This document shows, one piece after another, positions 3,899-4,752 of a stretch of 64,000 nucleotides of DNA. Each line of letters begins with the position of its first letter. Positions within the stretch are counted from its first letter, which is position 1. The DNA is taken from positions 627,393 to 691,392 of the forward strand of contig NZ_JACIDN010000001.1 of assembly GCF_014196345.1 (NCBI RefSeq), written 5' to 3'. This stretch comes from Methylobacterium brachythecii (GTDB lineage Bacteria; Pseudomonadota; Alphaproteobacteria; Rhizobiales; Beijerinckiaceae). Made by a program: the position numbers and the translations under genes. The notes under the pieces were generated by a model, which had not been told where the DNA came from, searched no databases, and worked only from the letters and a program-made list of their open reading frames with translations.

Positions 3899-4309
3899 TC
3901 AGCGGTTCAGCTGGCGTGAGAGCGCATCGATCACGAGGCCCAAGTTGCGCCTCTGGGGCTCGTCGAAGTGGTCGGATACGTGCTTGACGACCACGGCGGC
4001 GAGTCCCGCCCAGCGGTCGTCCGATGAAAAGGTCCGCTGCTCCGCGTCGGCGAAGCCACGATCGGGCACATCGTCGAGATGCGGAATTTCTGTGAAGAAC
4101 TCCGACAGCGGTACCCCGGTCATCCGGCTCAGGATCTCGAGATGCACCGCGCTGACCCGGTTAATGCCCTTCTCGTATTTCTGGAGCTGCGCCGCGGACA
4201 TGCCGAAGCTTTGAGCGACCTTCCGCTGCGTCAGCTGGCGACGTTTTCGCTCTTCCGCCATGCGTTGGCCGAGATAGATATCTCGCTCGTCGGTTTTTTG
4301 CCCCGCCAT
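3899..4309 (-). CDS. Xre-family (HTH_3) transcriptional regulator
   Basis: A 136-aa protein with an N-terminal lambda-repressor-like domain. [41 protein letters not shown] carries all five helices, including the T-Q-x-x-x-A, S-x-x-Q-L-Q-K-Y-E-x-G signature, followed by [16 protein letters not shown]. The C-terminal 60 residues are acidic with no clear effector domain. The ATG at 4309 is preferred over the in-frame start at 4372 because AGGA lies just upstream and the family N-terminus begins there. It is transcribed towards metK, but with a gap of about 140 bp and its own likely promoter between it and the tRNA. The target genes are unknown. Confidence 0.85.
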
Positions 4310-4430
4310 CTCGTGTCCTGCGCAGCCCTGTCCCTCTGCCGGATCATTCGGAAGGATCCCGGCACCGCACAAGCTCTAAAACATAACAAAAGATAAAAAG
4401 ACAACTAATTCTGCGTTAAGAAAGAATGGT

Positions 4431-4752
4431 TGGCGTCCCCGGCAGGGCTCGAACCTGCGACCCCAGGTTTCATACCACTTCGGTTTTCACCGCCACCCTG
4501 GGGCTGTCCCTCGGGTGTTCGTGGTCTGGACTATCCCTTCACCGTAGGCCTCGGAACGAAGCCTTTAGGTGCCGCCCGTCTAGTCTCTACACCTTCCTGC
4601 GGTGATCGCAGGCTTGGCTCGGGATCGGCAGGCGCCCTCGCGGGCGCTGTGAGCTTTCCCCGAATTTGAGCGGATCCGCCGCGTGGTTTCCCTTCGCGGC
4701 GCCCAATTTGTGTCTAGGAAACCTGTGCTCTGTCCAGCTGAGCTACGGAGAC
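4431..4752 (-). tRNA. tRNA-Arg(CCU) interrupted by a group I intron
   Basis: The exons are 4752-4716 (37 nt) and 4470-4431 (40 nt, CCA encoded) and give a 77-nt tRNA. The acceptor stem pairs GTCTCCG with CGGGGAC (one T-G pair), the discriminator is G, the D-arm is GCTC...GAGC and the T-arm is GCAGG-TTCGAGC-CCTGC. The anticodon stem is CAGGT/ACCTG with loop TT-CCT-AA, so the anticodon is CCU, reading AGG. The intron is inserted immediately after the third anticodon base. All stems close only when the 245 nt are removed, so splicing is required for function. Confidence 0.93.
4471..4715 (-). ncRNA. Group I self-splicing intron in tRNA-Arg(CCU)
   Basis: A 245-nt intron. The 5' exon ends in U (TTTCCT|AGAC) and the intron ends in G (GGTATG|AAACC), as group I requires. 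The conserved elements appear in order: P (AATTCGGGGAAAGCTC, about 4651-4665), Q (CGATCCCGAGCCAAGCC, about 4611-4627), R (GTAGAGACTAGACGGGC, about 4574-4590) and S (GGGATAGTCCAGACC, about 4523-4537). AGACTA of R pairs with TAGTCC of S in P7. GGGAAA within the intron can pair with the exon UUUCCU, giving the usual U-G at the 5' splice site. No reading frame for a homing endonuclease is present. It resembles the known Agrobacterium tRNA-Arg(CCU) intron (subgroup IC3) in position and size. Confidence 0.93.

Follow-up and report, generated by a model that had tools for sequence, protein, structure and literature searches.

Does the minus-strand interval 4752-4431 of this Methylobacterium window, by which we mean the whole 64-kb stretch of DNA analysed here, encode a working tRNA-Arg(CCU) interrupted by a self-splicing group I intron, and how far would the reading of AGG codons then hinge on a ribozyme? 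ARAGORN with default settings reports zero tRNAs in the 64-kb window. With introns allowed (-i), it calls a tRNA-Arg(cct) carrying a 245-nt intron directly after the anticodon. The 5′ exon (4716-4752, minus strand; tRNA positions 1-36, with the anticodon CCU at 4718-4716), recovered by ARAGORN from both the unspliced and the spliced sequence, ends in U; the intron (4471-4715, minus strand; group I, IC3-type) ends in G at 4471; and the 3′ exon (4431-4470, minus strand) supplies positions 37-73 and the encoded CCA. Once the 245 nt are taken out, the joined exons give a 77-nt tRNA-Arg(CCU) with a full cloverleaf, and splice-site enumeration likewise places the insertion between positions 36 and 37 of this tRNA, a junction backed by the intron-free alleles described below. 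The original prediction had delimited the gene as 4431-4752, to the base as ARAGORN does, and had anticipated that the tRNA folds after removal of 245 nt and that the insert sits directly after the anticodon, as in the Agrobacterium tRNA-Arg(CCU). Around the gene, a scan that does not cover alphaproteobacterial promoters found no sigma-70-like promoter, and no terminator was found at the locus. An XRE-type regulator gene (3899-4372) lies between the tRNA gene and metK, all three on the minus strand; as a viral link this regulator was discarded, the viral-contig scan having returned generic helix-turn-helix matches only.

The inserted sequence has the hallmarks of a group I intron. At a relaxed threshold, the Rfam family RF00028 matches 4750-4518 along all 253 model positions with 38.1 bits (E=3.5e-8 for 601 bases), and against 100 dinucleotide shuffles the full gene has the better fold in 99 cases (z=-2.97). 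The RF00028 gathering score is 50, so that the Rfam scan at the curated threshold finds nothing in the window and default scans are blind to the intron; together with the empty default ARAGORN run, this bears out the expectation that standard annotation may miss the tRNA. The related intron loci in tRNA-Leu and tRNA-Lys genes (L150-L153) are also unmatched by RF00028 at the curated threshold, and the cut-off therefore seems insensitive to this intron subgroup; a score of 50 is a curators' filter and no defining feature of group I introns. Nothing points to a homing endonuclease, as had been predicted: the open reading frames overlapping the intron match no Pfam family, and the intron is only 245 nt long.

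We drew a P1-P9 structure by hand and scored it on an alignment of 37 genus members (all coordinates on the minus strand). P1 (4702-4718) pairs exon CCU and intron AG (4718-4714) with UUGGG (4706-4702), the guide GGG lying at 4704-4702; its pairs, including the splice-site U-G wobble, are kept in 100% of the 37 sequences. The P2 hairpin with its GAAA loop (4677-4701) is paired in 99.4% of cells, with one pair changed on both sides, and the two P3 strands (4668-4673, and 4572-4577 as placed by the covariation alignment) are 100% paired. The P4-P5 domain (4619-4663; P4 joining 4663-4659 to 4623-4619) is delineated by both the RF00028 match and the covariation alignment. P6/P6a follows at 4591-4618, with four pairs of P6a changed on both sides, and P8 (4540-4571) shows double changes from A-U to G-C in nine sequences. 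P7 consists of GACUA (4581-4585, the R element and, by homology, the guanosine-binding site) and UAGUC (4529-4533, the S element); neither strand varies in the 37 members, and the same holds for the splice-site U-G pair and for the G that ends the intron. P9, P9a and P9b (4474-4525) also change on both sides. Overall, 94.3% of pair cells hold standard pairs and 20 pairs have changes on both sides; covariation reaches 0.095 as against 0.056 in shuffles, none of 500 shuffles being as good on pairing or on covariation, and pairing falls to 33-44% when the partners are shifted by one to three columns. P5a is badly aligned, only 41% paired, and of little weight. The end-to-end model match and the covariation thus agree on a P3-P8 core with P, Q, R and S elements, which the original prediction had read off the letters along with the U before the intron and the G at its end, and which its proposed check with the group I model recovers at full length, with the 38.1 bits falling below the gathering score.

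An alternative P1, pairing exon GUUUCCU with intron GGGAAAC, was rejected. The GGGAAAC block is the conserved loop of the P2 hairpin and recurs in tRNA-Leu introns, whose exon is another; it is the block immediately preceding P2 that varies with the exon.

The intron was present at the shared site in all 37 genus members first sampled. Its loops vary in length and sequence while the exons hardly change, the 5′ exon being the same in all 37 members and the 3′ exon invariant in nearly all. The longest intron in a congener, 318 nt (L154:255-649), carries a GGCCTTCGGG-like repeat run inserted in P6a. In the wider genus sample (Methylobacterium, Methylorubrum included), BLAST of the spliced tRNA retrieved an uninterrupted CCU gene from 3 of 111 genomes and none from the other 108. 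The three intron-free genes (L420-L422) read CACAGGUUUCCUAAACCUG, the exact predicted junction, and their anticodon arm, CACAGGTTTCCTAAACCTG, is identical to the predicted ligation product. The upstream flank is recognisable in two of these three congeners, and the downstream XRE-type gene also in one (L420), so at least two of the intron-free alleles occupy the same locus; the T arm of all three differs by several bases from that of the rest of the genus. As the intron is present in nearly all other genus genomes, its loss in the three congeners appears favoured over its never having been gained, and loss with drift and replacement of the gene may both be considered. Near-fixation in the genus combined with a patchy occurrence in the family and order fits an old acquisition followed by vertical inheritance and occasional loss. 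With three intron-free genomes set against 108 that showed no uninterrupted copy, the genus lends itself to a clean natural comparison for the cost or benefit of a tRNA intron.

What the intron means for decoding depends on the remaining tRNA genes. The assembly (5.4 Mb in 28 contigs, rated 100% complete) was searched with a tRNA model and each match was passed to ARAGORN. Besides the split gene it holds 43 other tRNA-model matches, with Arg anticodons ACG, CCG and UCU among them and one weak match that gave no tRNA; no second CCU gene is found among the 43, and the genome has only one group I match. No Watson-Crick reader of AGG other than the split tRNA-Arg(CCU) thus turned up in the assembly, in line with the proviso attached to the original prediction. 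A tRNA-Arg(UCU) gene is nonetheless present (L020), and such a tRNA may read AGG by wobble. Among 39 likely open reading frames of the window, AGG amounts to about 2.6 per 1000 codons and occurs in 21. The claim that ribozyme splicing is needed for every protein with an AGG codon was overstated, since tRNA-Arg(UCU) is at hand; the identification of the element as a group I intron of the Agrobacterium-like family stands, its supposed consequence for AGG decoding is too strong in the form given. Genomes of this genus can seem to lack a tRNA that they encode, which misleads analyses of codon usage and decoding.

With anatomy, conservation, covariation and a precise intron-free allele all observed directly, we put at about 95% the probability that this genome, of Methylobacterium type, has a single tRNA-Arg(CCU) gene and that this gene houses a group IC3 intron which is intact, self-splicing and passed down vertically. 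Judging from the intron family, the splicing chemistry would run as two transesterifications started by guanosine and leave a functional tRNA. The precursor would be transcribed with the intron inside, P1 would form between the guide GGG and the CCU that closes the exon, and a guanosine bound at P7 would attack after U36. Exon 1, once free, would in turn attack behind the intron's terminal G, so that U36 and A37 become linked in a normal 77-nt tRNA. A degenerate, non-splicing intron in a dead tRNA gene, with AGG read through tRNA-Arg(UCU) wobble, would suit the presence of that second tRNA and the rarity of the codon. We consider it highly unlikely: throughout the genus the exons show next to no change although the loops vary, the helices are preserved through changes, and a dead gene is not expected to retain P7, the terminal G and the splice-site U-G wobble in all 37 members.

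Should the intron be kept for a function, splicing might act as a control point, its rate setting AGG decoding under stress or according to the GTP and magnesium level. The near-fixation in the genus and the occurrence of AGG in about half of the likely open reading frames of the window speak for such a role, which we nevertheless regard as improbable, as three species do without the intron and its scattered occurrence in family and order matches a neutral, mobile element. We give almost no credence to the idea that the insert, instead of being a ribozyme, is excised by protein enzymes or is left over from integration into the tRNA gene: tRNA genes are common integration sites and a related copy in Gordonia phage Daredevil lies near an integrase, yet the insert here has a full group I core with covariation, no integrase occurs at the locus and no open reading frame in the insert matches Pfam. 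The intact self-splicing intron remains our reading.

How widely this kind of intron occurs was gauged by searching a covariance model of its core (R1) against overlapping genome samples of the order, class and phylum. Related introns turned up in 50 of 397, 49 of 385 and 40 of 398 genomes, respectively, and in about 10% of the sampled Pseudomonadota genomes. Splice sites were enumerated for 161 matches and the resulting tRNA was read, about twenty being assigned by relaxed rules or by eye. The 148 distinct cores sit in genes for tRNA-Leu(UAA) (69), Arg(CCU) (31), Thr(GGU) (17), Lys(UUU) (9), Leu(CAA) (7), Lys(CUU) (5), CAU (4), Thr(UGU) (3), Thr(CGU) (2) and Arg(UCU) (1). In each main host the guide block just before P2 fits the exon (exon/guide ACUU/GAGU in Leu, CCU/GGG in Arg, GGU/GCC in Thr, CUCU/GGAG in Lys); this agreement of guide and exon lends independent support to P1 as drawn and to the hosts as called. 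Enumeration also exposed the Phe, Ser and Stop labels that ARAGORN gives to many relatives as products of misplaced boundaries, and two weak model matches without a surrounding tRNA (L416, L417) were left out. Introns in tRNA-Thr genes comprise those with anticodons UGU (L184, L186, L195), GGU (L317, L370-L374, L376 and others) and CGU (L388, L390), and those in tRNA-Lys genes CUU (L193, L333, L337, L342) and UUU (L391, L392, L394, L395); in these Thr and Lys relatives the insertion follows U34, U35 or U36. For tRNA-Leu(CAA) (L403, L412, L413), the sole consistent splice point seems to be after C34, in which case P1 would carry C-G and not the usual U-G at the splice site. Hosts named in the open literature are Leu, fMet, Ile and Arg. 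A cyanobacterial study claimed introns in Lys, Gly and Arg tRNAs, which at 22-49 nt are not comparable because they are too short for a group I core. As judged from open papers, introns of this kind in tRNA-Thr, tRNA-Lys and tRNA-Leu(CAA) genes may not have been described before.

A tree of the cores, built on 137 columns and with many forks lacking resolution, requires at least 22 host changes as against 73 with shuffled labels. One branch (SH-aLRT 89) unites 26 of the 31 Arg(CCU) introns, with the Methylobacterium copy among them, and the rows nearest to that copy are all Arg(CCU). The tree agrees with the known picture of spread at the same site combined with rarer moves between tRNAs. We lean, with some reserve, towards a broad and apparently endonuclease-free family that has moved repeatedly between Pseudomonadota tRNA anticodon loops by a change of guide, with several hosts absent from open reviews and whole isoacceptors regularly missing from annotated genomes. 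If this holds, the family would be a good system in which to study endonuclease-free intron transposition by reverse splicing. The survey suggests that roughly every tenth genome of the phylum has hidden tRNA genes of this sort, and the host range of the relatives is a more interesting lead than the Methylobacterium intron itself.

Relatives also travel on mobile DNA. Plasmid pCTX-M3 (NC_004464.2) carries, at L150:3964-4262 and adjoining aac(3)-IId, a tRNA-Leu(UAA) gene that is absent from the annotation and contains a related group I intron. The 306-bp pCTX-M3 stretch recurs in 1,280 plasmid records; of 5,426 complete E. coli genomes, 635 have it, and no annotated feature lies under its matches among those listed. 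Over 468 nt the plasmid locus is 90.6% identical to a chromosomal tRNA-Leu locus (L426) from the family of Methylobacterium. Homology between the plasmid gene and this closest chromosomal relative covers the tRNA gene plus some 160 nt on its upstream side and extends no further, so that the comparison points to no donor of aac(3)-IId. In Gordonia phage Daredevil (L152:2960-3280), an unannotated tRNA-Lys(UUU) gene near a phage integrase gene is split by a related group I intron.

Among known systems, the plasmid-borne tRNA-Leu intron shares a related core and 73% DNA identity with the Methylobacterium intron and differs in its insertion after U34 and its guide GAGU. The group IC3 intron of the Azoarcus tRNA-Ile(CAU), inserted after position 36 as here, has the same guide position directly before P2, a GAAA loop and a P3-P8 core, whereas its tRNA is another, its guide is GUG instead of GGG and the extra P9a and P9b hairpins are a feature of the Methylobacterium intron; one surveyed locus (L405) is an intron case of the Azoarcus type. 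Closer still in kind are the introns of tRNA-Arg(CCU), reportedly described from Agrobacterium by Reinhold-Hurek and Shub in 1992 and from alphaproteobacteria by Paquin, Heinfling and Shub in 1999. Such introns came to light in the 1990s, in Agrobacterium to begin with and then in further alphaproteobacteria, and have a sporadic distribution with evidence of horizontal transfer (PMC7717549). They share with ours the tRNA, the site after the anticodon, a similar length, the lack of an endonuclease and the sporadic distribution, and differ in genus and in the near-fixation of the Methylobacterium intron within its own. BbgpI of Bartonella bacilliformis also interrupts an unannotated tRNA-Arg(CCU) gene, one that a tRNA finder likewise detects only after intron removal. 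Its splicing was demonstrated experimentally, both in vitro and in vivo (PMC7717549), whereas that of the Methylobacterium intron is predicted from sequence. The Methylobacterium intron is a further member of the known alphaproteobacterial tRNA-Arg(CCU) intron family and ordinary for its class.
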